Source: Lewinellaceae bacterium SD302
GTDB taxonomy: Bacteria > Bacteroidota > Bacteroidia > Chitinophagales > Saprospiraceae
DNA length: 64,000 nt
Direction: 5' to 3'
Assembly (NCBI GenBank): GCA_002591745.1
Contig: PDLQ01000004.1
Span: 62,001-126,000 of the forward strand
The translations under genes and the position numbers were made by a program. The notes beneath the pieces are model-generated. The model did no database searches and was not told where the DNA came from. It saw only the letters and a program-made list of their open reading frames with translations. Shown here one piece after another: positions 1,700-57,327 of the stretch (position 1 is the stretch's first letter; every line of letters starts with the position of its first letter).

Positions 1700-1750
1700 G
1701 GCTGACAAAGTAGCAAAGGTTCCCGGTAAACACTGCTACTTTGCCAGTCT
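1700..1750. repeat. Dispersed TGCTACTTTG repeat, inverted pair
   Basis: CAAAGTAGCA at 1706-1715 and TGCTACTTTG at 1734-1743 form a head-to-head inverted pair 18 bp apart. Both carry subtype B flanks (NYAGYC after the core). The pair sits between the GPH symporter gene and the membrane-protein remnant. Confidence 0.85.
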
Positions 1751-1808
1751 AAACCAGGCAATCTTACTGCTGCCCCTGTATCCTCTGACTTAGCCCCTGC
1801 TCTAACTT

Positions 1809-3248
1809 CTAAACCAACGTTTCGGCTTTCCTGCTTTCGATCTGAGCACGCACCGCGTTCGCTTTTTCCTCCGTCAGGTCGTAGGACCACATGATTAAAA
1901 TGGCGGCAATGGTGCCGGACATGGGGAAGAAGCAGAAGAAAGCGTGGAGGCCGTCAACCGCTCCTTGTTGCTCCGTAGTAGCGAGGGCGGAATCGAAGCC
2001 GGTCACGGTGATCATTAGACCACTGAGCGCACCGGCGATGGCGAAACCAAACTTGACCATCCACCAGTATATTGCACCAAAGATGCCTTCCCTGCGCTTG
2101 CCGGACTTTAGTTCATCGACGTCCAGTACATCAGCCGTCATGGACATCATGATGGTGAAGAGACTGCCGATACCGAAAGAAAAGAAGGGCAGGGCAAAGA
2201 TGTACAGCCAGGGCTTGCCGGGCACGAAAAGGAACCACATCAGAATATAACCGATCACGGAAATACTCTGGGACAGAAGGAATGCTTTGCGCTTGCCCAT
2301 GACCCTGGACATCCAGGCAACGGTGGGGATGACCACGAAAGTGGTACACAGTGCCCCCAGACTGCCAAAGAGTACCACCCACACGCCAGTAGCGGCAGCA
2401 TCACCGTTGAACAATTTGTAGACGATCACGAAAAAGGTCAGGGCCGCCACAGTATTGAAAGAATTGAAGATCAGAAAGGTGGCAAAGCACATTTTCCGAA
2501 AATTGCTGATGGCAAAAGCATCCTTGAAACCGGCTAAGATCTTGGTAATGCTTCCTCCGATGTTGGAGAGGGTCAGCGGTTCATAATCATCCCGGTGCAG
2601 GGTAGAGGGACTTTTGATGAAAATGGCGGGTACGATTGCGCAGAGTGCACAGGGCAGAGCGACCCAGATGGCCAGTTGACGGGTGGCTACCTCGGCTGAA
2701 GGAAACCAGGCCGGGTCGTACATGATGATCCAAAACCAGGGAGCAATAACCCAGGCCCACTGGCCGATCCACTGAGCCGTTGCCATGATACTGGTGCGCT
2801 CGTGAAAATCATCACTCATTTCATAGCCCATCGCTACGTAGGGTACACTGAAAATGGTCAGCCCCAGGTAGAACACGATCGACCAAATGAAGAAGTACCA
2901 GAAATTAAACTCCAGTGAGTTTTCTTTGAACAATTGCCACATGAAGATGTAAGCAATACCCATGATAATGCCCCCCAGTAGGACATATTGACGTCGCCGG
3001 CCCCACTTCGAACGGGTATTGTCCGAGATAAAACCCATGATCGGATCGGTGATGGAATCAAATATTCTCGGAGCGAAGGCGATAAGCCCCCACATCCAGC
3101 CCGAAAAGCCCAGGTCTTCCACCAGTACAACCATGAAAATGCCCAAAACCGCCGGAAACATTTGATTGGCCAGCATCCCCAGCCCGAAAGCTACTTTTTG
3201 CCCAAAAGGGACTTTGCCTTTCTTACTTACTGTAATGGTTTCTACCAT
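1809..3248 (-). CDS. GPH-family (MelB-like) sugar:cation symporter
   Basis: A 479-residue inner-membrane transporter with about 12 helices, of the glycoside-pentoside-hexuronide branch of the major facilitator superfamily. After helix 1 (FGLGMLANQMFPAVLGIFMV) comes RIFDSITDPIMGFISDNT, which holds the DxxxD pair used by MelB for cation binding, followed by the cytoplasmic loop SKWGRRRQY. It is the last gene of the glucan locus, 63 bp after the GH17 gene, and would carry oligosaccharides released by the GH16/GH17 enzymes into the cytoplasm. Substrate specificity is inferred only from neighbours. The C-terminus is a short cytoplasmic tail ending in ESRKAETLV. Confidence 0.85.
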   Translation of the reverse strand: MVETITVSKKGKVPFGQKVAFGLGMLANQMFPAVLGIFMVVLVEDLGFSGWMWGLIAFAPRIFDSITDPIMGFISDNTRSKWGRRRQYVLLGGIIMGIAYIFMWQLFKENSLEFNFWYFFIWSIVFYLGLTIFSVPYVAMGYEMSDDFHERTSIMATAQWIGQWAWVIAPWFWIIMYDPAWFPSAEVATRQLAIWVALPCALCAIVPAIFIKSPSTLHRDDYEPLTLSNIGGSITKILAGFKDAFAISNFRKMCFATFLIFNSFNTVAALTFFVIVYKLFNGDAAATGVWVVLFGSLGALCTTFVVIPTVAWMSRVMGKRKAFLLSQSISVIGYILMWFLFVPGKPWLYIFALPFFSFGIGSLFTIMMSMTADVLDVDELKSGKRREGIFGAIYWWMVKFGFAIAGALSGLMITVTGFDSALATTEQQGAVDGLHAFFCFFPMSGTIAAILIMWSYDLTEEKANAVRAQIESRKAETLV

Positions 3249-3311
3249 GATCGATCGGTTTAACTAGCTTTATACAATGAATCTAAATGTTAGGAAGTGC
3301 CCTAACGGGTG

Positions 3312-4610
3312 TTACTTATGACTTACGGCTTTTACGGGTGGCGCCTTAACAGCTTCCAGCAGCCTCGCCCGGTCACCACCAAAGGTTTTTTCAATCGGGT
3401 TGCCGTCGCGGCTCAGTCCGGAAAATACGCCCTGGTCGACTAAATCCCAGAGGGCATATTTGGCCTTGCCGTCAACGGTGAAGAGGCCGAAATGATTTTC
3501 CGAGCCACCGGGGTTGGCCGCATCTTTCCAGGGTTCGTCAAAACCCTCGAAGTAAAAACAGGCCATTTTGTTATTTCGCGTCCAGTTACGCATGTGTTGG
3601 TAATATAGCCCTTCCTTATACTCGTCACAAGCCAATGAACCGGAGTCGCCGTAGAAGCCGTTAGAATTGCTGGCCCAACCGGTTTCTCCTATGTGGATCG
3701 GCTTGTCGGCGCCCACGCTTTTGACGTAATCTGCCACGGCCCGGTATTGACCGTCCGCGTATGCACTGGCCCGTTGCATGGCGCGTTTGAGCTGTTCTTC
3801 TTTCGGCAGATCAGCCTCCTCCGGCAATACGCCCCAGAAAACCGGATTGTAATGAGTATCGTGCATCGGATAAGTGTGCATGGAGATATAATCTACGGCG
3901 TGTACCAGCTTTTTCAGGTCTTCCACGTGGTATTCCACATCACCGCCGCCCCAGGAGGCGAAGTTGTCGGAACTGGTTATCCACAGATCGGCCGGCAATT
4001 CTCCTGCTTGTTTGAGTCCCTGCAGGAGGTTTACCCATCTCAGGATCACCCGGGGCTGTACATAGTAGGCGGCGGCCCACTTGACCATCGCTTCGTTACC
4101 TACGGCAATGACCTTTACGATCTCCGGGTATTCGTTGGTCAGGGCAATGGCCCGGGCGATTTCCTCGCCATTCTTTTCACTTTCTCTTTCGTGGTCGACC
4201 GGCTGATCCGTCCAGGCATTTTTGCAGTCTATCCAGGCACCCAGCATCACGTACATCTCAAAGGCCGGATCCTGGTCCTTTAGCTCCCTGATCGCTTTGA
4301 GAATGTTGCCGGCCTGGGCCAGTTGCACGTTGTAGGTGCGGATGATCCTCACACCCATGGCGTGCAGCAGCCGCATATCATCTTTGAGTTGTGCCGGGGT
4401 CGGTTGTACGTCCCGGCTCGTGACCCGGTAACCACCGTAAGACATGGCCAGGTAGTCGGAATTACCGAGTATTTCTGCCGCAGTGGGCGTCGTTTTGACC
4501 GCGGTATCTTCTTTGCCGGTAGACTGTTCGGAAGATCCTTCACAGCCCGTGAGCAGTAACGCCAGCAACAACGGTAATGCGCGCATCAAGGGAATCAGTC
4601 GTCGTTGCAT
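3312..4610 (-). CDS. GH17 beta-1,3-glucanase lipoprotein
   Basis: The N-terminus is a lipoprotein signal ending LLLTGCEG, so the mature protein is anchored at a Cys near residue 23. The rest (432 residues in all) is a TIM barrel of glycoside hydrolase family 17: GYRVTSRD and MGVRIIRTYN at the first strands, the acid/base Glu in AVGNEAM near residue 173 and the nucleophile Glu in HIGETGWAS near residue 308. GH17 enzymes cut or transfer beta-1,3-glucan chains. With the GH16 enzyme and phosphorylase nearby, laminarin or laminari-oligosaccharides are the natural substrate. It starts 11 bp after the phosphorylase stop, so the two are cotranscribed. The lipoprotein could face the periplasm or the surface. 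Confidence 0.88.
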   Translation of the reverse strand: MQRRLIPLMRALPLLLALLLTGCEGSSEQSTGKEDTAVKTTPTAAEILGNSDYLAMSYGGYRVTSRDVQPTPAQLKDDMRLLHAMGVRIIRTYNVQLAQAGNILKAIRELKDQDPAFEMYVMLGAWIDCKNAWTDQPVDHERESEKNGEEIARAIALTNEYPEIVKVIAVGNEAMVKWAAAYYVQPRVILRWVNLLQGLKQAGELPADLWITSSDNFASWGGGDVEYHVEDLKKLVHAVDYISMHTYPMHDTHYNPVFWGVLPEEADLPKEEQLKRAMQRASAYADGQYRAVADYVKSVGADKPIHIGETGWASNSNGFYGDSGSLACDEYKEGLYYQHMRNWTRNNKMACFYFEGFDEPWKDAANPGGSENHFGLFTVDGKAKYALWDLVDQGVFSGLSRDGNPIEKTFGGDRARLLEAVKAPPVKAVSHK

Positions 4611-4621
4611 CGGTCTGGTTT

Positions 4622-7600
4622 TTAGCGTAACGAATTGCGGGGAATGGAAACGTTGATCTGTTGAACCTTACCCGTGCGACCGAAAATTTGCTGGCTTGTT
4701 TTCCGGTCGAGCGTCAGTCCGTCAAAGGTCTGGGTGTCTCCTTCTGTCAACTCAAGTTCAACGCTGGCCGTATCAGCCAGGCGGTAAACTACCGGAACCT
4801 GGCAATAGGTAAAGGCGAGTTCACCGGCCTGGATATCCAGGTGACACGGTCTTTCGTGTAGGTCGACGTATTTATACGTTTTCGCGGTCTCCAAAAACTC
4901 TCCACTCTTCAATATCGTCGGCTCAAAAGCCAGCTGACCATCGTAAACCTTCACACCCAGCTCTCCGAAACGGCACAACAGGTCTTCCTTCACCTGCCCT
5001 GTCATGCCCGGTTGCTGAGCGCCTTTGCCGGCGGGTGTGTGGGAGTAAGGGTCGGTGGGGAAAGCCCCGTAGAGTTTCGGCGTTTTGTGTACGCCCACGC
5101 CTTCATTGATGGCGTAGTAGTGTTCAATAAGGCCACTTACGGTTGCTTCGTCCGCTCGTGCGGCTACGGCGCGCTCACAACACTCCAGTACGGCCAATTG
5201 CAGTTTGGAAACCATGTGCCAGTAGATCGATCCCAGACCTTCGTAGCCAAAAAAGGTACCCGAACGACCGGTAAAGGCTTTGTGATTAAACACCCGTTCA
5301 AATGTTTGCCGCAGGTGCTTTCGCTCATTGTCGCTCACCTTCAACCCTTCCAGTTCGTCTAGCGCCTTGTCCAGGTCTTTGACGTTGTTGAAAGAGCCAT
5401 TGAAGTGATAGCCTCCGTTCAGGTCGCGCTGTACGATACTGCCGTCTCCTTTGGCGAGCATTTCCTGCAAAAGAGAGGAGTTCTCTACTGCGTCAGCGGG
5501 CACGTTGTTTTTTTCCAGGAAGCCCGGCAATTGCTTGTTCGGGTACAGGATGTAACTGTTTTGATCTTCCCGGTAGAGGGCGCTGGCGCGCAGACTGTTC
5601 AGTAGTTCGAGCTCGGCTTCGGAATCCAGATAGTGGGCGCTCAGGATCGCCACCTGGCCTTCCAGCATTTCGTCCAGATAATCGATGCTGATCCCGTTTT
5701 CGTGGGGCGTCATCAGGTTGTAGGCGTGGTATAATCCGTCGTCGCGCAAATTGGCGGCAATACTGTGGTCCATCCACTCCCGGGTACTGGCAAAGAAATT
5801 ACGCAGTTGTTCACTGGAAATCATTTGCTTTTCCCCGCCGAACGATCGGTCGTAAATGGATGTTCGGAATTTGCCGGCCGCCTGCCCCAGGGCATCCAGC
5901 ACTTTTTTACGGTCCTGGTCGCCGATCGAATTATTCAGCAGATCACGGTGATCCGCCAGGCTGCGATCTACTTGCTCAAACAACTCAGCCAACTCTGCGG
6001 AAACTTTAAAATGCCCTTCGGTGTTGGCCATCAGATCACTGAAAAAGGCCAGGAAGCGCCGCAGGTAATACAGGGTCGCCATAGATACGCCGTTACCCAC
6101 CAATGCATTGTTCGCATCGTTCCATTCGGGGCGCTGGGTCACCATCCAGATGCCTCCTTCGGGTATGAAGTTGCTGATCTTGGCTAACAAAGTAGCAAGG
6201 ATCTTTTCTACGAAGTTGACGCGCATCATGCTCCCGCTCCGGTCGGTCAGTAAAGCCCCGTCGGCTCCCATTTTCGCTCTGCGTTTCCGAATCATTTCGT
6301 CTCCTTCCCGGTCGAAGATCACCGTGTCCTTGGGGTCTTTCAGAAGATCAGCGTAGGGCTTGATCCGGTAAGGAACGTTGGCGTAAGTGAAGACCTCCTT
6401 GCTAAACATCTTAGCCAGGAAACCGGGCTCATGCTTCTCGGAAAACTCCAGGAATTTGAGCAGGTAGATGATCTGGTGGTCGCCCCAATAGCCGATGTAA
6501 GACCAGGGGTCGTCTTCTTCAATAGTTTCCCAGTCGAATCCCCCCTTGGTCACCCGGTAAGGGTTGTAACCATCGAAGGTAGAGGCGTTGAGGAACTTGT
6601 GGATCATCCCCTCCATGAAGTCGGGGTAGGCAAAGGCCAGGGCCTCCCAGTTCTGGAAAATATCCCGCCAGTTTCCTTCGTAATCCAGAATTTTTGAGCC
6701 GTCCTTTTCGCTGGTGGTATTGATGGAAAATTTATTCCAGGGCCGGCTCGGGTCACCGTGTCTGCGGCTGAACTTCAAGGGTAAATACTCCGTACCTAAA
6801 CGAATCAGATCAGGGTCCTCGCTTTCATTGACCTTGGCTACCAGATCCTGGTACCGAAAGGTTTGCCCGAGTGCTTCAATGGTCGCGTGATGACGATCGA
6901 ATACCTCCTGGTTCGCTTTCTTGAGGTAAGGGAGGAAATCATTCGCCTCAACCTGATAATCATTATCGAAAATACCACCCCGCATGATGTTGAACATCAC
7001 GTTACTGAATTGGCGGGTGTCCTTGCGGTCGTCGGCGGTGAGTTGCAAACCATCGGAAGCGGCGGTCAGTGCCGTTAGCTGCTCAGCGCCTTTTTTCACA
7101 TCTTCCTTTACCTCCGCCAGCAATTTCTCGGGATTGTGCAAGGCATTAATTAGCCGTTCCACATCCGGTCGGTTCTGGTTAACGTTCATGACCAGTGACC
7201 ATTCTTTTTGCTCGTCGGCGCCCAATTCTAAATTGTCGTAGAGAAAGTAAGCGCCTTTGGCACCCTTTACGTCGGTTTCCGCGCTTGGTTCTTCTCCTTT
7301 TCTCACGGATTCCAACTGCCTTGCAGATATCAGGCGAGTAGCTTCCGGAAGCCCGACTGACCAAACTACGTTGGCCTTTAGAGCCTCGCTTGGTTCTGCT
7401 TTATCGACTATGATGGCACTAAGGGCGTAGATGCCCAGGCCGCTCTCAGCGTGCAACTCCGTTCGTTTGTAGGCATCGGCAAGGTTGCTGGATCGCATCT
7501 GTAGTTCGCTGCCGACTCCGTAGGGGAGTACGTTTTGTACTCCATCGAGTAAACGGATCGACCGGCTACGATCACCTTTGTTTTCCAGTGTTGCCGTGCG

Positions 7601-8150: not shown

Positions 8151-8160
8151 CAAAGTAGCA
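8151..8160 (+). repeat. Dispersed TGCTACTTTG repeat between GH16 and phosphorylase genes
   Basis: CAAAGTAGCA, subtype B (reverse strand TGCTACTTTGCTAATC), in the 147-bp gap between the GH16 stop and the phosphorylase start. Confidence 0.85.
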
Positions 8161-9264: not shown

Positions 9265-9274
9265 TGCTACTTTG
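9265..9274 (+). repeat. Dispersed TGCTACTTTG repeat after the binding-protein gene
   Basis: TGCTACTTTG followed by AAGCC (subtype A), 13 bp beyond the stop of the glycan-binding lipoprotein gene. Confidence 0.85.
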
Positions 9275-14500: not shown

Positions 14501-14510
14501 CAAGGTAGCA
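14501..14510 (+). repeat. Variant dispersed repeat upstream of the fusion gene
   Basis: CAAGGTAGCA, one mismatch to the core, with an otherwise full subtype B flank (TTGACTGG before it). It lies about 125 bp upstream of the glycosidase-barrel start and 33 bp before the SRP RNA promoter. Confidence 0.7.
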
Positions 14511-14573: not shown

Positions 14574-14578
14574 CCCCC

Positions 14579-14664
14579 GGACGGCACGGGGCCAGCTCCT
14601 ACTGAATTCCCCCAGGGTGGAAACGCAGCAAGGGTAGGTGGTTGAGCGGCTGGCGTGTCCGTCC
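14579..14664 (+). ncRNA. ffs: Signal recognition particle RNA (small bacterial type)
   Basis: The ends pair (GGACGG with CCGTCC), then CCAGC with GCTGG, forming one long rod. The apical part CCCCCAGGGTGGAAACGCAGCAAGGG holds the conserved GGAA-type tetraloop stem and the asymmetric A/C-rich internal loop (GCAGCAAGGG) bound by Ffh. Length (about 86 nt) fits the Alu-less 4.5S class. It guides ribosomes making membrane and secreted proteins to the Sec translocon. A T-run follows (ACTTTT). Confidence 0.9.
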
Positions 14665-14679
14665 ACTTTTAGTACGGGT

Positions 14680-16996: not shown

Positions 16997-18475
16997 TTAT
17001 TCGAAATCGAGATCCAGATCGTCATCCAGCATGTCCGCCAGAATATCCCGGAAGGAGAGGCTGTTTTCCAGCACATCTTTATTGACGACATCCATCTCGG
17101 CCAGCCCTTGCAGGACCAGTTCCATGTATAGATAGGTATCAGCTTTGGAGAGCTTCTCCTCGACGTGCTTCTCCACGAACTTGCGGAGCCCGGCCACGGC
17201 ATCCAGTTTTTTGCGGTACTCAGCGTCGCTGTCATCATTCAGAAGATCGACAACATTACCGCCGCTAAAGTAAGCGCGGATCGTGCCGTAGGGGTCACTT
17301 TCGCGGCCAGGACGTACACTTTCTGGATCGGGGAAGTGGGCCAGGAAACTTTCTTTGATCGACTGACCGAGAAGCTTCATGGCAACTCCGTAGGCACCTT
17401 CCTGCTCGCCCTCGTAGACCAATTCTACCTTGCCGGTAATGGCGGGTACCACACCCCAGAAATCGGTGATGCGGGCCGTGGTCTTATTTTCGTTATTGAT
17501 GAGCAGGCGTCGTTCAGCCGTGGAAGCCAGATTTTCGTAAGCGCTTATGCTCAGTCTGGCCGACACGCCGGATTTTTCGTCGATGTACTCACTGTCGCGG
17601 GCTGAAAAGGCCAGTTGTTCCAACATGATCTCCAGCAGGTCGGGGATGGCGACCTGTTCTTTCTGCTCCGGTGTAAGTTGGGCCTCCTGGCTGGTAATGC
17701 TCCGCGCAATCTCAATGGTCTTGGGATAGTGGGTCAGGATCTGGCTCTCGATACGATCCTTCAACGGAGTAATGATGCTGCCCCGGTTGGTATAATCCTC
17801 TGGGTTGGCGGTAAAGACGAACTGAATTTCCAGGGGCAACCGTAGTTTAAAGCCCCGAATTTGAATATCGCCCTCTTGCAAAATATTGAAAAGGGATACC
17901 TGGATCCGGGCCTGCAAATCGGGCAGTTCATTGATCACGAATAAGCCCCGGTGGGCTCTGGGGATCAGGCCAAAATGAATTACCCGTTCGTCGGAGTAGG
18001 GGAGCTTCAAAGTAGCAGCTTTGATGGGGTCCACGTCACCGATCAGGTCGGCTACGCTTACGTCGGGAGTGGCCAGCTTTTCTACGTAACGCTCGTCGCG
18101 GTGCAGCCAGGCTACGGGAGTGTCGTCTCCCTTTTCGGCAATCAGGTCAATGGCGAAGCGGCTGATGGGGTTCAGCGGGTCGTCATTAAGTTCGCTGCCG
18201 GCTACTACGGGGATATACTCATCCAGTAAACTCACCAGCAAGCGGGCAATCCGGGTCTTGGCTTGGCCGCGTAGCCCCAATAATAAAACATTGTGGCGTG
18301 ATAAAATGGCGCGCTGAATATCGGGAACCACCGTATCCTCAAAACCTACAATGCCGCCGAAAATTTCTTCTTTGTTGCGTAGCTTTTCAATCAAATTGGC
18401 GCGTAATTCTTCTTTGACGGAGCGGGGCTGGTAGTCGCTTTTTTTGAGTTGTCCGAGAGTGGTAGCTTGGTGCAT
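16997..18475 (-). CDS. MoxR/ChlI-like AAA+ ATPase
   Basis: The 492-residue cytoplasmic protein resembles the ATPase subunit of magnesium chelatase-like AAA+ machines. The P-loop is GLRGQAKTR near residue 68 (Ala where a Gly is usual, common in this subgroup). The Walker B/lid segment is GLFVINELPDLQARIQVSLFN, and sensor 1 reads IQFVFTANPEDYTNRG. Then come ITPLKDRIESQI, with the arginine finger region, and a helical C-terminal domain. Members usually work with a von Willebrand A-domain partner; none is next to it here. Its job, such as remodelling a metal- or stress-linked client, cannot be told from sequence. The coding region has one repeat core at 18008 encoding ATLKL. Confidence 0.8.
   Translation of the reverse strand: MHQATTLGQLKKSDYQPRSVKEELRANLIEKLRNKEEIFGGIVGFEDTVVPDIQRAILSRHNVLLLGLRGQAKTRIARLLVSLLDEYIPVVAGSELNDDPLNPISRFAIDLIAEKGDDTPVAWLHRDERYVEKLATPDVSVADLIGDVDPIKAATLKLPYSDERVIHFGLIPRAHRGLFVINELPDLQARIQVSLFNILQEGDIQIRGFKLRLPLEIQFVFTANPEDYTNRGSIITPLKDRIESQILTHYPKTIEIARSITSQEAQLTPEQKEQVAIPDLLEIMLEQLAFSARDSEYIDEKSGVSARLSISAYENLASTAERRLLINNENKTTARITDFWGVVPAITGKVELVYEGEQEGAYGVAMKLLGQSIKESFLAHFPDPESVRPGRESDPYGTIRAYFSGGNVVDLLNDDSDAEYRKKLDAVAGLRKFVEKHVEEKLSKADTYLYMELVLQGLAEMDVVNKDVLENSLSFRDILADMLDDDLDLDFE
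18008..18017 (+). repeat. Dispersed repeat core within the AAA+ gene
   Basis: CAAAGTAGCA preceded by GCTT (subtype A on the reverse strand, TGCTACTTTGAAGC). It lies in frame on the gene's strand as ATLKL. Confidence 0.7.
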
Positions 18476-18551: not shown

Positions 18552-18561
18552 TGCTACTTTG
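18552..18561 (+). repeat. Dispersed repeat between divergent AAA+ and lipoprotein genes
   Basis: TGCTACTTTG followed by ATAGTC (subtype B), 9 bp upstream of the likely -7 box of the lipoprotein gene. Confidence 0.85.
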
Positions 18562-20858: not shown

Positions 20859-22052
20859 ATGAAAACAAACTTTACACTCGGCTTAATTCTCTTTTTACTA
20901 GGGCAATTGCCCGCTCAATTGATCAATGAATTTGAGCCCAATCCCGTGGGGGGCGACCCCACTAACCAAAATGTTGAGTTAAAGGGTACGCCCGGAGCTG
21001 GCTTTGCCGGTATGCTGGTGAGTATCGAAAGTGATTTGGCGAATATCGGCACGGTTGACCGTTTACAGGCCATATCCGGAACTTTTGACGCCAATGGTTT
21101 GCTGGTCGTGTCGGTACCCGACCTGGAGAATCCCTCATTTACCCTGGTTCTGACCGGTAACGATGCAACGGTTGTCGTAGGCGATGATCTCGATCTCGAC
21201 AACGACGGTTCCATCGATAACCCTGGCGACCTGGGCACTATTTTGGACGCTATCGGAATCCCCGATGAGGCCGATGATGCAGACAATGGCGTCTACGGAG
21301 TTGACTTGGGAGGAGCCGATTTCCTGTTCACCGGAGATGAACCTAAATTAGTTTTTCGCGACGGTGTTAACAACCAATGGTACGCAATCAATGACCCGGA
21401 CGGAGGAACAGTCTTTGACCTCGCGGCAACTATGGTCGATCCAATGGATTTTGACATCGACCCACTGGCTGGTTCTACTTTCGGTAGCACTAATCCGACA
21501 ACTGGTCTGGCTCCGGTAACTCTTGTGGACTTCAAAGTAGCAAAGCTGACTAGATCAGTTAAATTGAACTGGTCTACGATCAACGAAACCGGCAACGATT
21601 ACTTTGCCGTTGAAAGAAGCACTGATAACGGTCGTACGTTCAGTGAAATAGGACGCTCTAAGGGATCTGGCAACTCCCGTGATTTCAACGCTTATGAGTT
21701 TGTTGACGAGAACCCCTTCCGGGGAACTTCCTTCTACCGTCTCCGCCAGGTAGATTTCGACGGCACCAAAACCTTCTACGGCCCCCTTAGCGTACAATTC
21801 GGAGAAGCGTCTACTACCGTTACCGTCTTTCCCAACCCCGCCTATGAAACCATTAGCCTGCGGGGCCTGGCCGGTGTGGTTGAGGAGATCGAGATTTTCA
21901 ATGCCCTCGGCCGTCGAGTCAAGACCGTGAGCAACACTGCCACTAAATCGGCTGGAACGAGTATCGACATTTCTGGCCTGCACCGGGGTGTCTACCTGGT
22001 GAAGTATCGTTCAGGCAGTGAACGGGGTGCCTTGAGGTTTATAAAACGATAG
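20859..22052 (+). CDS. Secreted lamin-tail-like protein with T9SS sorting domain
   Basis: 397 residues from ATG 20859 (the frame opens at a TTG 15 bp earlier). A signal peptide ends LGQLPAQ. LINEFEPNPVGGDPTNQNVELKG opens a lamin-tail-like (LTD) domain, common in secreted nucleases and adhesins, with Asp/Asn-rich loops DDLDLDNDGSIDNPGD that may bind calcium. Then a Reg-prop/FN3-like stretch (ERSTDNGRTFSEIGRSKGSG) leads to a type A T9SS sorting domain beginning VTVFPNPAYETISLRG and ending ALRFIKR. It should be exported by T9SS and fixed at or released from the surface. A dispersed repeat core (21533) lies in frame as DFKVAK. Confidence 0.8.
   Translation: MKTNFTLGLILFLLGQLPAQLINEFEPNPVGGDPTNQNVELKGTPGAGFAGMLVSIESDLANIGTVDRLQAISGTFDANGLLVVSVPDLENPSFTLVLTGNDATVVVGDDLDLDNDGSIDNPGDLGTILDAIGIPDEADDADNGVYGVDLGGADFLFTGDEPKLVFRDGVNNQWYAINDPDGGTVFDLAATMVDPMDFDIDPLAGSTFGSTNPTTGLAPVTLVDFKVAKLTRSVKLNWSTINETGNDYFAVERSTDNGRTFSEIGRSKGSGNSRDFNAYEFVDENPFRGTSFYRLRQVDFDGTKTFYGPLSVQFGEASTTVTVFPNPAYETISLRGLAGVVEEIEIFNALGRRVKTVSNTATKSAGTSIDISGLHRGVYLVKYRSGSERGALRFIKR
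21533..21542 (+). repeat. Dispersed repeat core within the T9SS protein gene
   Basis: CAAAGTAGCA preceded by GACTT (subtype A), reading DFKVAK in frame. The 14 bases GACTTCAAAGTAGC plus AA recur at 40434-40449 in hutG in the same frame. Confidence 0.8.
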
Positions 22053-22155: not shown

Positions 22156-23505
22156 ATGCCCAACCCACAACGCATTATCATCGTAGGAGCCGGACTATGT
22201 GGCTCTCTGCTGGCCATCCGTCTGGCCCAGCGCGGTCATCAGGTTGCTGTTTACGAGCAGCGCTCCGATCCTCGTCAAGCCGATGCCGCCGGCGGACGTT
22301 CCATCAATCTTGCACTCTCCGCCCGCGGACTCATGGCTTTGGAAAGAGTAGGCATAAAAGACCAGATTCTCGAGCACTGCATTCCTATGCGTGGGCGGAT
22401 GATCCACCCGCTGGAGGGGGAGAGTTTTTTTTCCAGTTATAGTGCGCGACCGGAGAGTTATATCAACTCCGTTTCCCGCAGCGGCCTCAATGCTACTTTG
22501 CTAGACCAGGCGGACCAACTGAATAATGTATCTCTTCATTTTGACCATAAAGTCACCAAAGTCGACCTTAAAAAGGCCACGATCTATTTTAAGGATGACA
22601 CCGGCCAGGCGGAAGAGGCTTCTGCTGATCTGGTAATCGGTACTGACGGAGCAGGATCGGTTGTTCGCAAAGCTTTGATGGGGCAGACCACCAAGTTACT
22701 CTTTAACTACTCCCAATCCTTTTTGCGGTATGGCTACAAGGAACTGACGATCCATCCCGGTTCGGATGGGGCTTTTCGGATCCGCAAAGAAGCACTACAC
22801 ATTTGGCCAAGGGGGAAATTTATGATCATCGCCCTGCCCAATCCCGATGGCAGTTTCACTCTCACCATGTTTCACCCATTCGATGGTCCCATTGGCTTCG
22901 ATGCCCTGGACAGTAAGGAAAAAGTGAAAGCTTTCTTCGAAGAGTACTTTCCTTCCTTGTTGCCCTACATCCCGGACTACCTGGAGGAGTATTTCGAAAA
23001 CCCGATCGGTACCCTGGGCACCATTCGCTGTTCTCCCTGGCAGGCTTACGGCAAAACGCTCATCATGGGTGATGCCGCCCACGCCATCGTACCTTTTTAT
23101 GGACAGGGCATGAACGCCAGCTTCGAGGATGTCCGCGTATTTGACGATCTTTTAGAAGCACACGGTCAGGACTGGCCACTTATTCTGCGGAAGTTTCAGG
23201 AGGACCGCGTAGAGAACGCCAATGCCATCGCCGACCTGGCTATTGATAATTTCTACGAAATGATCGATAAGGTGGGCGATGAAAAGTTTATCCGCAAGCG
23301 CAAAATTGAACTTCAACTCGAGCAACAGTACTCCGATTATTATTCCAAATACTCCCTGGTCACCTTCCGACCGGAACTGGATTACAAAGCAGCCCGCAAG
23401 CTCGGCCGTAAGCAAGATGAAATTCTCCTGGAAATGGTAGGGCGGGAAGGCTACGAAAAAATTGAATTAGACGAGTATTACGAAGCGGTAAAGAGACTTC
23501 AATGA
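22156..23505 (+). CDS. kmo: Kynurenine 3-monooxygenase
   Basis: This 449-residue FAD enzyme hydroxylates kynurenine to 3-hydroxykynurenine using NADPH and oxygen, in tryptophan breakdown and quinolinate/NAD synthesis. The FAD-binding Rossmann motif IIIVGAGLCGSLLAIRLAQRG is at residues 7-27. The substrate-pocket segment GRSINLALSARGLMALE is characteristic of KMO and distinguishes it from other class A flavin monooxygenases. TLIMGDAAHAIVPFYGQGMNASFED holds the second FAD-binding GD motif. The C-terminus lacks the eukaryotic membrane anchor. No kynureninase or other pathway gene is adjacent. A repeat core (22491) lies in the gene, encoding ATLLD. Confidence 0.92.
   Translation: MPNPQRIIIVGAGLCGSLLAIRLAQRGHQVAVYEQRSDPRQADAAGGRSINLALSARGLMALERVGIKDQILEHCIPMRGRMIHPLEGESFFSSYSARPESYINSVSRSGLNATLLDQADQLNNVSLHFDHKVTKVDLKKATIYFKDDTGQAEEASADLVIGTDGAGSVVRKALMGQTTKLLFNYSQSFLRYGYKELTIHPGSDGAFRIRKEALHIWPRGKFMIIALPNPDGSFTLTMFHPFDGPIGFDALDSKEKVKAFFEEYFPSLLPYIPDYLEEYFENPIGTLGTIRCSPWQAYGKTLIMGDAAHAIVPFYGQGMNASFEDVRVFDDLLEAHGQDWPLILRKFQEDRVENANAIADLAIDNFYEMIDKVGDEKFIRKRKIELQLEQQYSDYYSKYSLVTFRPELDYKAARKLGRKQDEILLEMVGREGYEKIELDEYYEAVKRLQ
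22491..22500 (+). repeat. Dispersed repeat core within kmo
   Basis: TGCTACTTTG followed by CTAGAC (subtype B), reading NATLLDQ in frame. Confidence 0.75.
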
Positions 23506-25070: not shown

Positions 25071-25080
25071 CAAAGTAGCA
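25071..25080 (+). repeat. Dispersed repeat between rlpA and ruvB
   Basis: CAAAGTAGCA with subtype B flank (GGCTGC before it), 17 bp after the rlpA terminator hairpin. Confidence 0.85.
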
Positions 25081-35819: not shown

Positions 35820-35950
35820 ACTAGCAAAGTAGCAGTGTAAACGAATGATTGAATGATTAATGATTGAATAGGTAAAACGTTTCGACCACTAGATCATTCA
35901 ATCATTGAAAGATTATCTCATTATTATCTAACATTGCTACTTTGCTAACC
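35820..35950. repeat. Inverted pair of the dispersed repeat around a palindromic core
   Basis: CAAAGTAGCA (35825-35834) and TGCTACTTTG (35935-35944) face inward around a 100-bp AT-rich segment. Inside, AATGATTGAATGAT (35844-35857) pairs with ATCATTCAATCATT (35893-35906). The whole looks like a small terminal-inverted-repeat (MITE-like) unit. It fills the gap between glnS and the sugar dehydrogenase gene. Confidence 0.75.
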
Positions 35951-39690: not shown

Positions 39691-39700
39691 TGCTACTTTG
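39691..39700 (+). repeat. Dispersed repeat upstream of hutG
   Basis: TGCTACTTTG followed by AAGTCAAA (subtype A), between the divergent rarA and hutG genes. Confidence 0.85.
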
Positions 39701-39800: not shown

Positions 39801-40757
39801 ATGCCCGCCAGATTCCTCTCCCCCGACCCGGCTACCTGGACCGGCCGCCAGGCACCCGCCAATGACTACTGGTTCCAGAAAATACAATGTGTTGAATGGA
39901 GCGAATACCTGGAAGACGGGCCCCTGGGCATCAGCCTGATTGGTTACGCCGTGGACGAAGGCGTGCGACGCAACCAGGGCAGGGTAGGAGCGGCAGCCGG
40001 CCCGCTGGCTATCCGCACCCAGTTGGCAAAACTGGCCAATCACCTGCCCGAAGACCTCAACCTGTATGACCTGGGCGATATCAGTTGTCCCGACGGTGAC
40101 CTGGAAAAGAGCCAGCAAGCCCTGGCCGACTGCACGGCCGAAGTCTTGCGCCAACGGGATTTTCCGGTGTTGCTGGGTGGTGGCCATGATATCGCCTACG
40201 CCCACTACAAAGGCGCCCAAAAAGCATTCCCCGGCAAGCGCATCGGCTACATCAACTTCGACGCTCATTTCGACCTGCGGCCGGACACGGAAGGCCCCAA
40301 TTCCGGCACCCCCTTCTTCCAGTTGGCCCGGGAAGCACGTGAGCGTGACGAACACTTTCCCTACCTGGTTTTCGGGATTCAGCTAGCGGCTGCGACCCCG
40401 AGTCTGCTGGCTACGGTGGAGGAGTTGGATGTAGACTTCAAAGTAGCAAGGGAAATGGTCTTCAGCCGGCTGGATAGTCACCGCCGATTCCTGGATTCCT
40501 TCCTCTCCGATCTGGATGCCGTTTGTCTGACCATTGATCTGGACGGTTTTTCCTCGGCTTATGCTCCCGGAGTCAGTGCCCCTAACCCCATGGGCTTCAG
40601 TCCAGAAGGTGTATTTCCCCTCTTCGAATACCTGGCGGCCAGTGGTAAATTGATCAGTTTAGACATCGCCGAACTCAACCCTGCCTACGACCAGGATACA
40701 GTGACGGCCAAACTGGCGGCACGTTGTGTGGCGGCGGTAGTAAATGGGTTGGGCTAA
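39801..40757 (+). CDS. hutG: Formimidoylglutamase HutG (arginase superfamily)
   Basis: 318 residues from ATG 39801. It is a metal-dependent ureohydrolase. The Mn ligands are in LLGGGHDIAYAHYKG, YINFDAHFDLRP and CLTIDLDGFSSAYAPGVSAPNP. The N-terminal WSEYLEDGPLGISLIGYAVDEGVRRNQGRVGAAAGP fits formimidoylglutamases of Bacteroidota better than arginase or agmatinase. It would hydrolyse N-formimino-L-glutamate to glutamate and formamide at the end of histidine breakdown. Other hut genes are not near, so the role comes from family features only. A repeat core (40439) lies in frame as DFKVAR. Confidence 0.82.
   Translation: MPARFLSPDPATWTGRQAPANDYWFQKIQCVEWSEYLEDGPLGISLIGYAVDEGVRRNQGRVGAAAGPLAIRTQLAKLANHLPEDLNLYDLGDISCPDGDLEKSQQALADCTAEVLRQRDFPVLLGGGHDIAYAHYKGAQKAFPGKRIGYINFDAHFDLRPDTEGPNSGTPFFQLAREARERDEHFPYLVFGIQLAAATPSLLATVEELDVDFKVAREMVFSRLDSHRRFLDSFLSDLDAVCLTIDLDGFSSAYAPGVSAPNPMGFSPEGVFPLFEYLAASGKLISLDIAELNPAYDQDTVTAKLAARCVAAVVNGLG
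40439..40448 (+). repeat. Dispersed repeat core within hutG
   Basis: CAAAGTAGCA preceded by GACTT (subtype A), reading DFKVAR in frame. Confidence 0.8.
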
Positions 40758-41065: not shown

Positions 41066-42574
41066 TTAATTTTCTCCCTGCGCCCGTAGAGCCCTGAATG
41101 CTTTGCCCAGGTGATCGATCACGTCGGTTGCCAGTAGGCTTTCCTGTTCCAGTTCGGTGGCCGCTAAATCTCCCGCGCTTCCGTGCAGGTAAACGCCCAG
41201 CTTGGCGGCGTCGACCGAGGGGTAACCCTGGGCCATCAGACCCGTGATGATTCCCGTCAGTACATCTCCGGTTCCTCCCGTACCCATTCCCGGGTTTCCA
41301 TTGGTATTGAAGGTGACCCGACCGTCGGGTGTGCCGATAGCGGTATTGCCACCCTTTAAAACGATGACCAGATTCAGGGCCTGACATTTTTCGCGCAGCA
41401 ATTCCCAACGGGCAAAGTCATTATCCGTTTCCCCGAAGAGCCGGGCAAACTCCTTCGGGTGAGGAGTCAGGATACTCCCCCCGGGAAGTTGTTCCAGCAA
41501 ATTCTGCCGCACAGACAGGATGTTCAACGCATCGGCGTCAAGCACTAAAGGCTGATCGGTATGCCGAATGAATTTCTCCAAAGCGGCAGCCGTTAATTCG
41601 TTTGTGCCCATTCCCGGGCCAATTCCGATTGCATTATACCGTTGACTACCAGGAATCTCAGTAACCACGAACCGGTGGCGGTCTATCTGACACATTGCCT
41701 CGGGCAGTGCGATCTGTGCAATCTCGTAGCCGCAGCGTGGCAGATGAGCCGTAACCAGACCTGCCCCGGCCCTTAAAGCGGCGCTGGCGCAAAGGGTGGC
41801 CGCACCAATTTTTCCCTGACTACCGGCGGCGATCAATGCGTGACCAAATGTGCCTTTGTGGTCAAAAAAGCTTCGGTCCTTCAAAGTAGCCCGCAAGTTA
41901 TCAACGTCTTGGGTGAAGAAGGTGGCATCAATGGCTTCTAACGCCTCCGCAGCCAATTGGATGTCTACTGACTCGATCTTTCCGTAGGCTTTAGCGTTGT
42001 CGACCGCGAATTCGGCTAATTTGGGAGTACCCAGGGAATACGTCAGGTTGGCCTGTACGTGAGTACCGTCGGTAAACCGGTCGGCAAAAACTCCGCTGGG
42101 CAGGTCGATACTGATTACGGTACCGGTAGTTGCATTAATTTGCCGGATGACCCCGGCCCAGACTCCGGTCACTGGCCGACTGAGGCCGCTGCCGAATAAA
42201 GCATCGATAACGACCAGTTTTGGATCGTTCAGGTCACGAACATCATCAGCAGACTCAACCGTAATGATCTCGATGCCGGGAATTTCCTTGGCCAGCTGGT
42301 AGTTTAGTGCATTGTCTGAGCTGCGTTCACCGATTTGGCAATCATATACAATTACCCGGTGTTGGGAAGACAATAGTCTGGCTAATACCCAACCATCTCC
42401 ACCATTATTGCCACTGCCACAAAAAACTGCATATTCACTGCCGTAGAAATCTTCCACAAAACGATAGTAGGTTTCGTGGGCAGCCCTTTCCATCAGTTGA
42501 GCCGAACTGATGTTTTGCGCTTCAATAGTCGCCTGGTCCAGGGCGGGAAGATGCTTGGCAGAAACTATTTTCAT
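41066..42574 (-). CDS. nnr: Bifunctional NAD(P)HX epimerase/dehydratase
   Basis: 502 residues join two repair enzymes. The N-terminal epimerase half (about 1-215, YjeF_N/AIBP) has CGSGNNGGDGWVLARLL and VVIDALFGSGLSRPVTG. The C-terminal ADP/ATP-dependent dehydratase half (about 225-502, YjeF_C) shows GHALIAAGSQGKIGAATL, PLVLDADALNIL, GGSILTPHPKEFARL and GNPGMGTGGTGDVLTGII. Together they restore damaged hydrated NAD(P)H. The dehydratase would use ADP or ATP as in the family. It sits 3 bp after the MCE gene, and a one-mismatch repeat core is at 41882. Confidence 0.94.
   Translation of the reverse strand: MKIVSAKHLPALDQATIEAQNISSAQLMERAAHETYYRFVEDFYGSEYAVFCGSGNNGGDGWVLARLLSSQHRVIVYDCQIGERSSDNALNYQLAKEIPGIEIITVESADDVRDLNDPKLVVIDALFGSGLSRPVTGVWAGVIRQINATTGTVISIDLPSGVFADRFTDGTHVQANLTYSLGTPKLAEFAVDNAKAYGKIESVDIQLAAEALEAIDATFFTQDVDNLRATLKDRSFFDHKGTFGHALIAAGSQGKIGAATLCASAALRAGAGLVTAHLPRCGYEIAQIALPEAMCQIDRHRFVVTEIPGSQRYNAIGIGPGMGTNELTAAALEKFIRHTDQPLVLDADALNILSVRQNLLEQLPGGSILTPHPKEFARLFGETDNDFARWELLREKCQALNLVIVLKGGNTAIGTPDGRVTFNTNGNPGMGTGGTGDVLTGIITGLMAQGYPSVDAAKLGVYLHGSAGDLAATELEQESLLATDVIDHLGKAFRALRAQGEN
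41882..41891 (+). repeat. One-mismatch repeat core in nnr
   Basis: CAAAGTAGCC preceded by CCTT; the reverse strand reads GCTACTTTGAAGGAC (subtype A-like), encoding ATLKD. Confidence 0.5.
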
Positions 42575-45328: not shown

Positions 45329-48300
45329 ACGGGATAAGTGTTCTGAACCTGGCCTTCCGCCGGGTTTCGCTACAAATATACGTGCTCTGCCTCATTATGG
45401 CGATGGGGTGGGGTAGCGCATCTGTAATTGCTGCTGCTCCGGCGGTAGATTCCACATTATGGCTTCAAAGTAGCAAGCTTGGTAATTTCGATGATGACAT
45501 TGCCCCTCTGCTAGCAACAACGATATGCCAGTGGGCCCAACCTTCTGTTATTGGACCAAAAACCAATTTGATTCCGGGCATTGAAAAGAACACTGCTACT
45601 TTGTCAGTCGAAAAAAAGGCTGGAAGTGAGAAAACAGACGCTTGGCAAGAAACTCAAACTGCTGATGCGGACACCGGACTAGAAAATTCCCGTTCCGAGT
45701 ATCACCTGGACCGATCTCACGAGTACCTCGTCCCAGGGTTTCGCGACCAAACCGTTGGGCCATCGTCAGGCCTACTGACCACCGACACCATTCCCCCGGA
45801 TTCCCTCGATGAGTATCTGATGCGCAACGACCTTCCCGTCTATCCCATCAACCCCACTGATACCGTTCCAAATCCTTCCGATACTTCATTAATTAATTTC
45901 GGGGTCACCATTGAGCCGGACTCCCTGACGCCGCGTTTTACGGGCAATACCAATGATTTTCGCCTCAGTAAAGACAGCCTGGATGCCCCGGTGGAATATT
46001 CCGCCCGCGATAGCCAGCACATTGATTTTATAAATGAAGAGATTCACTTATTCGGCGATGCCAAGGTAACTTATCAGCAGGTGCAGTTGTCTGCCGATCA
46101 CATCATTTTGAACTGGGGAAGTAATATCGTAGTAGCTGAACCCCTGCGCGACAGCCTGGGTCAGCGGACGGGACTGCCCAGCTTCAGCGACGGCGGCCAG
46201 GAATTCACGGCTAAAAAGCTAAAGTATAATTTCCGGACCTCTAAAGGCATCATCACCGATGCGGTGACCAGCCAGGACGATATCATAATTCGTGGCGGAA
46301 CGACCAAGTTTCTGAGTGGTGCGATACAAGTCGACGATACGACCCGGGCCGATGTGATTTACACCGCCGGAGGTATTTTTACGACCTGTACCGACGAACA
46401 CCCTCACTTCGGTTTTCGGACGACGAAAGCCAAAATAGTTCCCAATCAGGTAGCCGTGATCGGGCCAACCAATCTTGAAATCATGGGCGTGCCTACACCG
46501 CTCTGGCTGCCCTTTGGTTTTTTTCCTTTGAAAAGTGGACGCAGCACCGGATTGATCTTTCCCAATGACTACGAATACAGCCCGGTCTGGGGCTACGGAC
46601 TGCGTGACTTCGGCTGGTTCTTCCCACTGGGTGAGCACGTTAACCTTTCTGTGCTTGGCACCTATTACCTTAAGGGGACCTGGGGCGTTGGAGCCACCGG
46701 GAGCTATCGGAAACGTTATGGCTACAGCGGAAATTTCACCCTGCGCTTTGATAATCAGCGGGCAGAGGCCAATGATGGGTTCGTTGATTTTCAGAATAGC
46801 ATGCAGATTCGCTGGAGTCATCGACAGGACCCCGCCGCCCACCCCACGGCCAACTTCGGGGGCAGTATTAACTTCCAAACCAATCAGGCCCAAAGTCGGG
46901 TATATAACTCTGCGGCAGCCGTACGGCAGAATACGACCAACTCTAACGTGAATTTCACAAAGAGTTGGGACGGTCAGCCCTTTAACCTCACCGCCAGTCT
47001 CAGCCATAGCCAGAGTAACCGGACGCGGGAGATCACAGTGAACTTTCCCCAGGTCCGCTTTCAGACCCAGACGATCTACCCCTTCCGCCGCAAGGCTGAG
47101 AATCGGGTTGGTAAGGAACGCTGGTACGAGCAGGTCAACTTCCGTTACACAAACGAGTTGAAGGGGACTTTTGTCGGGTCGGATACAACTTTCTTTACCC
47201 AAGAGACTTTGGATGATGCTCGTTACGGTTTCCGCCAGAATGCCAGTACCGGACTCAATTTTAAGGTGCTTAAATACTTTAATCTCTCGCCCTCCGTGAG
47301 TTACGAGGAAACTTACTACACCCGCCGCAGTGATTTTGTATTTGACGGCACGACCGGAGTAGAAACGGACTCTACTTTCGACGAATTCGGTAACCTGATG
47401 ATCGATACCACCGATTTCGGTACCATTCGTGAATCTCTACAAACCGGACTTTACGGTATTCGGGAGTTCTCAGCCGGCATCTCCTTGAACACCCAGTTCT
47501 TTGGCACGATTAAGTTCCGAAAGGGCAAATTGCGGGGGCTACGCCATATTGTAAAGCCCCGGATCACTTTCGGCTACCAGCCGGATTATCTAAATAATGA
47601 TCGCTATAACATCATTTTGGCCGATACGCTGCTGCCAGAGTTGAACCGCACTTACGATCGTTTCGATGATGGCATCTTCGGCGGCGCGCCCAGCGGTGAA
47701 AGACAAGTGGGTATTTCCTACTCCATCGATAACCTCTTCGAAGCTAAAATCTGGAACAAGCGAGACAGTACTACGGAAAACGTAAAGCTATTTCAAAATA
47801 TCGGCATTAGTGGTTCTTATAACTTTCAGGCGGATTCTCTGAAATGGTCGATGATCCGGATCTCTGGCGGCACTAAATTTTTCAAAGATCTCACCAGCGT
47901 TAGCCTCCAGGCCGAACTGGATCCCTACGAACGTATATACGACGGTAGTAGCGTTACCGGCCGACGAGTAGACATTACAACGCTTTCGTCTAGCCAGACG
48001 CCTTTTAAACTGACGCAGTTCAACGGCACGATCTCCACTAATATTACGGTTGCCAAGATCCGCCAACTCTTTCAAGGGGAGGAAGAGGAAGTGATCACCG
48101 ATGTACGGGAAGAAAGGCGTAGACAACGGGAAGAAGAGAATACGTTATTCGAAGAGACGGATTTATTGTCTCTGTTTGAAAACTTCTCCATTCGCCACAA
48201 CTTTAATTTTCGAACCCGACGGCTGGTCGATCAGAGCGGTACCGGTGCCCGGGATACCCTGCGCTTCGAAACCCAGGCCCACAGTGTGGAACTTAGGGGG

Positions 48301-50203: not shown

Positions 50204-50213
50204 TGCTACTTTG
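50204..50213 (+). repeat. Dispersed repeat between divergent genes
   Basis: TGCTACTTTG followed by TTAGTCAA (subtype B), in the 5' gap shared by the TPR-like and adhesin genes. Confidence 0.85.
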
Positions 50214-54433: not shown

Positions 54434-54443
54434 CAAAGTAGCA
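54434..54443 (+). repeat. Dispersed repeat after the adhesin terminator
   Basis: CAAAGTAGCA with CTGG before it (subtype B) in the gap before the convergent SPOR lipoprotein gene. Confidence 0.85.
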
Positions 54444-54622
54444 GTGTTTAATTTAAAGCACTTACCAGCAGGAGCTAGACTTGACAGTTGATGCCGTAGC
54501 GAAACTCATCCGGTAAATGGATCACTAGTCCTCTTTGCCAAAACGCTTTATCCGGAAAGCAGAAATTGAGGAGGGGAAGAATTTTCAGGTTAGTACCTTT
54601 CTCTTTCCCCCCCACTTGTCGT

Positions 54623-55282
54623 TTACTGCTGGCCTGAGAGTCGCAATGCTTCTTGGACCTCCACTCGTTGCCCGTTGTTCAAGGCTACTACGAAAGCATC
54701 CTTCACGCCCATCTGGCGAAGACGGTCGCGTAGCTTGCGGGCATTATCATAAGTACGGAACTGGGAAACGACTACCTTTTGCAGCCCTTGCTGATCGCTG
54801 AGGTTCAGGCCGTCACCGGTGTCCAGGTCATTGTCCAGTTTATTGCCAGGCTGAGCGAAGGCACCGAGCTGAACGCGAAAAACTATCCCGTTTGCAATAG
54901 ATTGGTCGGTGATCATCTCGTCCCGGTTGGCCAGAGCGTTCTGAGCTACGGTAAGCTGACTTTGGGCTTCGTTAAGCTGTCGACGCAGGTCCTGAAGTTC
55001 GGCCTGGGCATTCTGATAATTGGCTCCGCTGGAATTCTGAGCAGACTGAGCCCGGTTGAGGTCGCTGCGCAGTTGGGTGACCAGTGCTTCGTTTTCTTCA
55101 CAGGCCTCGGTAAAGGTGCGGAGAGACTCCGGGTTCTTCTGGTAAGCTTTGGCACGAGCGGACCAATCAACGCCGTCGCTACCGTCACCCATCGTTGCTA
55201 CTTTGGGGCTACAGGCAGAAAAGCCGAGAAAAATGACCGCAAGTAGGGCCATAAGCAGTGGGAAAGTGAATTTTTGGTACAT
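54623..55282 (-). CDS. Coiled-coil lipoprotein with SPOR domain
   Basis: 219 residues; lipoprotein signal ending FLGFSACSPKVA. The middle (about 60-125) is a coiled coil (LVTQLRSDLNRAQSAQN, AELQDLRRQLNEAQSQLTVAQNAL). The C-terminal part (about 135-215, FRVQLGAFAQPGNKLDN to VKDAFVVALNNGQRVEVQEAL) is a SPOR domain, which binds stem-peptide-free glycan at division sites. A repeat core is just after the lipobox in frame (PKVATM). Possible role: septal cell-envelope tether; it stands alone between two plus-strand genes. Confidence 0.78.
   Translation of the reverse strand: MYQKFTFPLLMALLAVIFLGFSACSPKVATMGDGSDGVDWSARAKAYQKNPESLRTFTEACEENEALVTQLRSDLNRAQSAQNSSGANYQNAQAELQDLRRQLNEAQSQLTVAQNALANRDEMITDQSIANGIVFRVQLGAFAQPGNKLDNDLDTGDGLNLSDQQGLQKVVVSQFRTYDNARKLRDRLRQMGVKDAFVVALNNGQRVEVQEALRLSGQQ
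55196..55205 (+). repeat. Dispersed repeat core at the 5' end of the SPOR lipoprotein gene
   Basis: TGCTACTTTG; on the gene's strand it encodes KVAT right after the lipidated Cys. The flank after the core (GGGCT) fits neither subtype well. Confidence 0.55.
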
Positions 55283-55427
55283 GAATTATAGGTTTTACTG
55301 GATAAACTGGCTTAGTTGGGCGGATGTTTACGTCAATTGGTCGTAATAAACAGACGCGTTCAGACGTAAAGCTTAACTTGCGTCGTTTCTTATTGAAACG
55401 ATTTACTACTCAAACAAAATTAGTATA

Positions 55428-57065: not shown

Positions 57066-57071
57066 GTACTT

Positions 57072-57174
57072 AAAGACGCTAGATTCTGGACGCTAGACGC
57101 TAGAGTGAGACAATAGATGAAGGAGGCTTGAACGCTGAAATTCTAGTGTCTGACTTCTAATGTCTAGCGTCTTT
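57072..57174. terminator. Nested-repeat hairpin after the subtilase gene
   Basis: AAAGACGCTAGA (57072-57083) pairs with TCTAGCGTCTTT (57163-57174), with a T-run at the end. GACGCTAGA-like units occur three times on the left side and their reverse (TCTAGTGTC, TCTAATGTC, TCTAGCGTC) three times on the right, so several stem registers are possible. Confidence 0.65.
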
Positions 57175-57264
57175 TTGTTTCTGTGTTGCAACAATAAAAC
57201 AACCTCAGTCAATTTCATGAAGCAATAAGACTGAAGGGGTACTTATCTAATCGTGCCTAATCAT

Positions 57265-57327
57265 ACATGGCTACTTTGTTAGCCAAAATAAATTGATGGA
57301 TTGTTCGGACTAGCAAAGTAGCAATGT
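57265..57327. repeat. Dispersed repeat, outward-facing pair
   Basis: GGCTACTTTG (57269-57278, one mismatch, flank TTAGCC) and CAAAGTAGCA (57314-57323) face away from each other, opposite to the pairs at 1.7 and 35.8 kb. They lie in the gap between subtilase and MFS genes. Confidence 0.8.

Follow-up and report, generated by a model that had tools for sequence, protein, structure and literature searches.

The stretch of DNA analysed here, 64,000 nucleotides from the genome of Lewinellaceae bacterium SD302 (contig PDLQ01000004.1, positions 62,001 to 126,000; hereafter the window), carries a short dispersed motif built on the 10-mer TGCTACTTTG, which probably (at roughly 0.64) serves as an uptake-signal sequence, working like the DNA uptake sequence (DUS) of Neisseria and the uptake signal sequence (USS) of Haemophilus. 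The initial annotation had reported 20 exact cores in the window and suspected a genome-wide signal without strand bias, for which DNA uptake is the best fit among the causes it named. All 20 cores are present, compared with 0.05 expected (100 shuffles gave a mean of 0.05 and a maximum of 1); the core placed at 45476 actually lies ten bases away, at 45466 on the reverse strand. Among the near copies, those listed at 14501, 28978, 41882 and 57269 are single-mismatch sites, but that at 61142 is a weak match with two mismatches, located at 61147, and was not accepted. The whole genome (5,478,864 bases in 147 contigs) holds 1344 copies of TGCTACTTTG versus 16 of the reversed pattern, a count far from random expectation, divided almost equally between the strands (675 forward, 669 reverse) and amounting to about one copy per 4 kb, or about one per 7.4 kb on each strand. 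In 59 other genomes, each of 20 other species of the genus had 0 to 12 copies, and the maximum outside the genus was 38, in a genome of 11.2 Mb. The longer word YTGCTACTTTGNYAGYC occurs 685 times in the SD302 genome, and 395 other genomes from the order have one copy or none apiece. At least three stretches on contigs of other organisms contain the site, once each, and no viral contig was found with it.

Taken together, 123 sites from 464 kb define a unit of about 25 bp, ARCAYTGCTACTTTG-(A or NY)-AGYC-AAAA, in which a spacer of variable length separates the core from AGYC and a run rich in A; the information in the consensus runs out past about −5 and +25. The near-invariant part is GCTACTTTG, and a spacer of 1-2 bp precedes AGYC. 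Both of the subtypes that had been proposed to differ by one base in spacing proved to be real, the AGYC tail of subtype A sitting one base closer to the core than that of subtype B. When 201 exact sites in 746 kb were classified, the B spacing was better or equal in 140 (132 of these with at least three of the four AGYC positions) and the A spacing fitted 61 (59 with at least three). The two largest classes of mutated core have the first T changed to G (18 of the 79 one-mismatch forms) and the seventh base changed from T to C (9); all six context positions are present in 34 of the 79, and at least five of the six in 43.

The position of the 201 sites relative to genes was determined in the same 746 kb with a simple hexamer-based gene caller, so that gene boundaries are approximate. 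Although intergenic DNA makes up 13% of the sequence, 119 of the sites are intergenic, a 9.8-fold enrichment. The other 82 lie within genes of unrelated families, 42 on the strand of the gene and 40 on the opposite strand, and 67 of them are in a single codon phase, reading ATL, or KVA when on the other strand. The near-even spacing claimed in the initial annotation is not a property of all sites pooled, for which the coefficient of variation (CV) was 0.98 in the window and 0.80 in 746 kb, the latter only mildly regular, but it holds for each strand taken alone, with a mean spacing of 7.4 kb, a CV of 0.52 in 746 kb and CVs of 0.46 and 0.53 on the two strands of the window.

Copies on the same strand exclude one another. 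Only one same-strand gap was shorter than 1000 bp, compared with a mean of 21.8 and a minimum of 11 in shuffles, and the deficit was also seen at 500 bp (1 versus 15.2), at 1500 bp, at 2000 bp (6 versus 34.4) and at 3000 bp (19 versus 49.8); none of 1000 shuffles was as low as the observed value at these bars. A further bar of 1230 bp (1 versus a mean of 23.2 and a minimum of 12) was the smallest gap in the first 464 kb and was therefore chosen from the data, and the other bars agree with it. Neighbouring sites alternate in orientation in 144 of 198 cases, the shuffle maximum being 123. Conversely, sites on opposite strands are unusually close to each other: 27 of 103 forward sites lie within 300 bp of a reverse site, whereas 300 simulations that kept both the intergenic preference and the same-strand exclusion gave a mean of 13.3 and a maximum of 24. 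When one-mismatch sites are counted, there are ten inverted pairs within 60 bp, all of them outside genes, and the two in the window are predicted to form strong structures (z −4.9 to −5.2 in three folds). This same-strand exclusion is a measurable feature for which any mechanism has to account. The longest site-free stretch in the 746 kb measures 13.8 kb, with a lowered G+C fraction of 0.48 (G000:C82:172899-186688; L045, L046), and resembles by eye a metal-handling island; the next-longest carry ordinary genes.

Comparison with sister proteins shows that the copies in alignable genes arose in place. The site at 6188 lies within a gene for a protein of 1134 amino acids, and five orthologs (59-64% identity), out of seven sisters with a match, align without gaps across LAT-x-LAK; where the protein reads LATLLAK, as in three of them, all differences at the site are silent. 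For eight of the 82 genic sites a sister protein could be aligned at an identity of at least 45%, with 10 residues on either side; the remaining 74 fell outside the comparison. None of the eight had an extra stretch of motif length. The largest gap specific to SD302 in these alignments was 4 residues, flanked by a 5-residue gap on the other side. The 45% bar was chosen after weaker alignments had shown gaps at some sites (for example C1 134393, 24-27% identity, and C1 332045, 37%).

Related motifs are present in the sister species. In a de novo k-mer search of 12 sisters (52-160 kb each), GCACCTGCG was among the top words in G002, G013, G014 and G020, and GCACCCGCG in G019 and G016; no clear top motif of this kind was seen in the sequence searched from G007, G009, G012, G017, G001 and G004. 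In the G002 set that included locus L035 other repeated words ranked first, and in the other G002 search GCACCTGCG was the top 10-mer. Aligned sister sites (58 from 8 genomes) read CnYTGCACCTGCG-N-CCGCGCCC, with a C-for-T variant at 32 sites from 2 genomes; the imperfect dyad that the initial annotation had described is not evident by eye in the sister consensus. The word YTGCACCTGCG occurs 21 to 1129 times in 16 sister genomes, compared with 2 to 20 times for reversed controls (G005, 1129; G002, 1062; G014, 1050; G006, 602; G008, 563; G015, 338; G009, 223; G020, 214; G013, 211; G017, 204; G019, 154; G012, 127; G007, 110; G016, 73; G004, 54; G001, 21), and 9 times in SD302 (reversed control 6). 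Outside the genus, its maximum in 379 genomes is 36, often somewhat above the control (for example, 35 versus 0 in G394). The shorter form TTGCACCTGCG exceeds its control in all 20 sisters (12-686 versus 0-7), with at least 100 copies in 13. The SD302 and sister motifs are most similar when aligned in a shared register and strand (p = 0.005, column shuffles), and a third form matches the SD302 motif in register with p = 0.038. Judged by these sequences, the genus appears to have at least three dialects, TGCTACTTTG-NYAGYC, TGCACCTGCG-NCCGCGCC and GCACCCGCG-NCCGCGCC. The exclusion recurs in G002, where the first 100 TTGCACCTGCG sites listed include no same-strand gap below 2 kb (shuffle mean 5.3, fraction 0.001).

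Some sister sites appear by eye to lie in signal-peptide codons, which could inflate the sister counts. Some sister sites have a word, TTGCT, roughly 20 bases upstream (L061-L064, L077-L080, L110-L113, L130-L133); it is weak, and may represent a second point of contact. No comparable short motif was found in 40 kb from each of four genomes of the family (G280, G204, G303 and G233), an amount that sufficed in controls, since the motif was the top 10-mer in all four 40-kb sets tested (two from SD302, one each from G014 and G002). G280 is densely populated by long dispersed repeats that centre on GCTCGGCCCT (16 copies in 40 kb) and CACATCGCTA (8 copies; L207, L208) and form a different repeat family of mobile appearance, and a ACTTTGGCGACGG-like word in G233 (L214), in regularly spaced (about 480 bases), protein-repeat-like DNA, probably resembles the core by chance.

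Uptake signals are described, in the portions of the literature available to us, as known only from Neisseriaceae and Pasteurellaceae, and the open-licence literature in its available parts contains no report that we found of such a motif in Bacteroidota or Saprospiraceae. According to the accessible text of PMC1626085, USS and DUS occur about once per kb without orientation bias, are spaced more regularly than random and include some close opposite pairs; they prefer non-coding DNA, with many coding copies, and are over-represented in relatives. DUS dialects are said to share a conserved inner part (PMC3630211, in part), and DUS spacing to be similar to conversion-tract length, with DUS in permissive regions (PMC2397512, in part). 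The motif is like the Neisseriaceae DUS, as the sections available present it, in its hundreds to thousands of copies, balanced genome strands and many genic sites (PMC2346458), in its inverted pairs (PMC1626085) and in its species dialects around a conserved part (PMC3630211). It differs in sequence and phylum, and in its lower density, longer site and variable spacer; moreover, the protein that reads DUS is the type IV pilin ComP, and our search of these genomes recognised no pilus ATPase. With the Pasteurellaceae USS, as far as the excerpts go, it shares the combination of a core (9 bp in USS) with an A/T-rich flank, a spacing more regular than random, close opposite pairs and the non-coding preference; unlike USS, which has many one-mismatch copies, the motif has few. 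Over-representation, lack of orientation bias, regularity on each strand, close opposite pairs, non-coding preference and dialects are thus all seen, and because the distributional features of DUS and USS, apart from density, are shared, we infer an uptake signal, and with it uptake itself.

We propose that natural-transformation machinery would read the motif as a tag, with a surface receptor binding the site of about 25 bp on free DNA, and that the preference of this receptor would cause DNA of the same or related species to be taken up first. Sites that had arisen by ordinary mutation could then become common as tagged alleles were taken up and recombined, and biased uptake, perhaps together with selection, may keep them at a density of roughly one in every 7.4 kb of each strand; a change in the receptor would shift the motif and so generate dialects. 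Receptor binding, uptake and drive are all inferred. The wider proposal is that this would be a third, independently evolved uptake-signal system, with none before it from Bacteroidota or working without a type IV pilus; the genus would contain three dialects or more, the odd one coinciding with the only genome examined from the genus to carry the DUF5689/outer-membrane operon described below. We give this proposal a slightly better than even chance of being correct. If it is, a third case in another phylum and without a recognised type IV pilus would mean that uptake tagging evolved repeatedly, and the system would offer a fresh test of molecular drive versus selection as well as a pointer to the outer-membrane DNA receptor of Bacteroidota.

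A number of observations weigh against an uptake signal. The density of about one site per 4 kb is low compared with about one per kb for USS and DUS. One-mismatch cores are hardly in excess, numbering 79 compared with 71 in the reversed control, whereas for USS the part of PMC1939737 available gives 947 versus 86 expected. The 82 genic sites show no orientation preference (42 same, 40 opposite), whereas one orientation is commoner for USS and DUS within genes (PMC2346458, in part). Together with the pilus machine, the excess of one-mismatch forms and the genic orientation preference are the features of the known systems that we did not see. Nine of the ten inverted pairs lie in regions with a gene 3′ end, and so do 73% of intergenic bases; the share of pairs does not exceed the base rate, and a terminator role for them is therefore unsupported. 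The sisters also conform less well: G001 and G004 have few dialect copies, the same-strand CV in G002 is 0.91 with alternation not significant (0.13), and sister sites are 60 genic to 30 intergenic, with weaker codon-phase and intergenic preferences.

The evidence on machinery is mixed. No pilus ATPase was recognised in the 21 genomes of the genus in a search confined to PF00437, in which pilins were not searched. Matches to this profile were marginal and covered a short part of it (best 24.9 bits); they occurred in 20 of the 21 genomes, and 11 of the 21 nominally reached the cut-off. The best SD302 match is a ClpB-type AAA+ protein, and the other matches were not inspected singly. ComEC is encoded in all 21 genomes, which fits uptake, but also in 10 of 14 control genomes, and its presence therefore says little. 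With no type IV pilus ATPase recognised, the outer-membrane step is probably different from that of the known systems, for which a minor pilin is the predicted USS receptor (PMC12616744, in part). In Riemerella, also of the Bacteroidota, the transformation machinery is called unique by the authors of PMC8459023, the consulted portion of which lists ComEC, DprA, ComF, RecA and four other proteins as required; two of the four, an outer-membrane CarboxypepD_reg protein and a DUF5689 protein, are neighbours. R. columbina favours its own DNA (PMC7965970, in part). SD302 is like Riemerella, judged by domains, in having ComEC and adjacent CarboxypepD_reg-like and DUF5689 proteins, and unlike it in that k-mer counts in Riemerella gave A/T-rich words only.

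The SD302 gene pair (C115:5673-10601; L153) encodes a plug-domain protein of outer-membrane type (933 amino acids; CarboxypepD_reg and plug matches, both below curated cut-offs) and a protein of 675 amino acids, lipoprotein-like by eye, with three DUF5689 matches. P0002 matches the NCBIfam M949_1556-family lipoprotein below the cut-off (118.6 of 475 bits). DUF5689 is present in 95 of 120 family genomes sampled, SD302 included, and was not detected in any of the 20 sister genomes, two of which are less than 90% complete; the partner has no ortholog in these 20 (best 33.9 bits versus 2133). Matches to the partner mark 15 sister neighbourhoods, in which 5 of the 15 proteins were run against Pfam and have plug or TonB-receptor domains, and no counterpart operon was seen by eye in 8 of the 15 gene lists. 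The pair was therefore rejected as a genus-wide receptor. Four genomes with DUF5689 show no comparable short motif in the 40 kb sampled from each, and the sisters with the other dialect lack DUF5689, so the operon alone does not explain the motif. By analogy with Riemerella it is a candidate for the outer-membrane step in SD302 itself; SD302 stands apart both in its dialect and in its outer-membrane machinery, which is one coincidence and no proof.

Other explanations for the motif can be set beside uptake. A recombination signal of the Chi type would be read from one side by a nuclease such as RecBCD or AddAB, which would require spaced copies on each strand separately; this would account for the same-strand exclusion, the non-palindromic motif and the few mutated forms, and Chi sites resemble the motif in being oriented, over-represented and dispersed. 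Known Chi sites, however, are 5-8 bp long, lie mostly in genes and are biased to the leading strand, whereas the motif is much longer, at about 25 bp, is enriched between genes and is near-balanced on three contigs (50/39, 35/38 and 18/21 by contig strand, with replichores unmapped), and we consider a Chi function unlikely. A genome-wide binding site for a nucleoid or segregation protein, which the initial annotation had also suggested, or for a regulatory protein is consistent with the abundant, sharp core and the intergenic enrichment. It retains a small share of the probability, but the sites are only loosely linked to the direction of genes (of 33 in tandem intergenic regions, 19 are oriented with the genes), a nucleoid role alone predicts neither dialects nor the exclusion on one strand alongside closeness on the other, and a change of dialect would presumably require more than 1000 sites to be rewritten.

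A mobile repeat spread by a transposase, such as the repetitive extragenic palindromic (REP) elements and REPINs, would explain the species-specific spelling, the many near-identical copies, the hairpin-forming inverted pairs and the gaps at sites in some low-identity alignments. The ungapped alignments at 45% identity or more, none of the eight having a motif-length gap, the exclusively silent differences at 6188 and the single codon phase of 67 of the 82 genic copies argue otherwise; inserted, essentially extragenic copies of the REP/REPIN kind were not found at the tested sites. We therefore dropped this reading, which the initial annotation had worded as relics of a tiny mobile element, as very improbable. 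Least credible is a promoter or terminator element only, even though we take the core to resemble part of the Bacteroidota −7 motif and both inverted pairs in the window fold strongly. A promoter was our initial guess and was abandoned because sites occur in genes on both strands (82 of 201 are genic) with little fixed orientation to genes; the close inverted pairs, moreover, are few and show no excess near gene ends. An uptake signal thus remains the explanation that we prefer, and its sites in the window are listed in Table 1.

Table 1. Exact and one-mismatch sites of the motif in the window, with strand and surroundings
Site	Position	Strand	Context
Subtype B	1706..1715	-	Forms strong hairpin with inverted copy at 1734; 3′ end of gene 1809-3248 is 65 bp away
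Subtype B	1734..1743	+	Inverted pair with 1706
Subtype B	6188..6197	-	Within gene 4622-8026; silent changes versus sister genes in LATLLAK
Subtype B	8151..8160	-	Intergenic
Subtype A	9265..9274	+	Intergenic
One-mismatch, subtype B	14501..14510	-	Full context
Subtype A	18008..18017	-	Within AAA-domain gene 16997-18475
Subtype B	18552..18561	+	Intergenic
Subtype A	21533..21542	-	Within Por_Secre_tail gene, opposite strand, reads DFKVA
Subtype B, AGAC tail	22491..22500	+	Within FAD-binding gene 22156-23505
Subtype B	25071..25080	-	Intergenic
One-mismatch (GGCTACTTTG), subtype B	28978..28987	+	
Subtype B	35825..35834	-	Intergenic
Subtype B	35935..35944	+	Intergenic
Subtype A	39691..39700	+	Intergenic
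Subtype A	40439..40448	-	Within arginase-family gene
One-mismatch (GGCTACTTTG), tail AAGG	41882..41891	-	
Subtype A	45466..45475	-	5′ end of LptD-family gene; inside or just before, by start codon
Subtype B	45594..45603	+	5′ part of LptD-family gene
Subtype B	50204..50213	+	Intergenic
Poor tail	54434..54443	-	Intergenic
Poor tail	55196..55205	+	Within or immediately before 5′ end of gene 54623-55282
One-mismatch (GGCTACTTTG)	57269..57278	+	Forms inverted pair with 57314 where two genes converge
Subtype B	57314..57323	-	Inverted pair with 57269

An Rfam scan of the window matched no curated RNA model at the sites, and its sole match at gathering score was a small signal recognition particle RNA (RF00169) at 14576-14670 on the forward strand. 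Type IX secretion system (T9SS) and SprB domains were also found, and suggest Bacteroidota.

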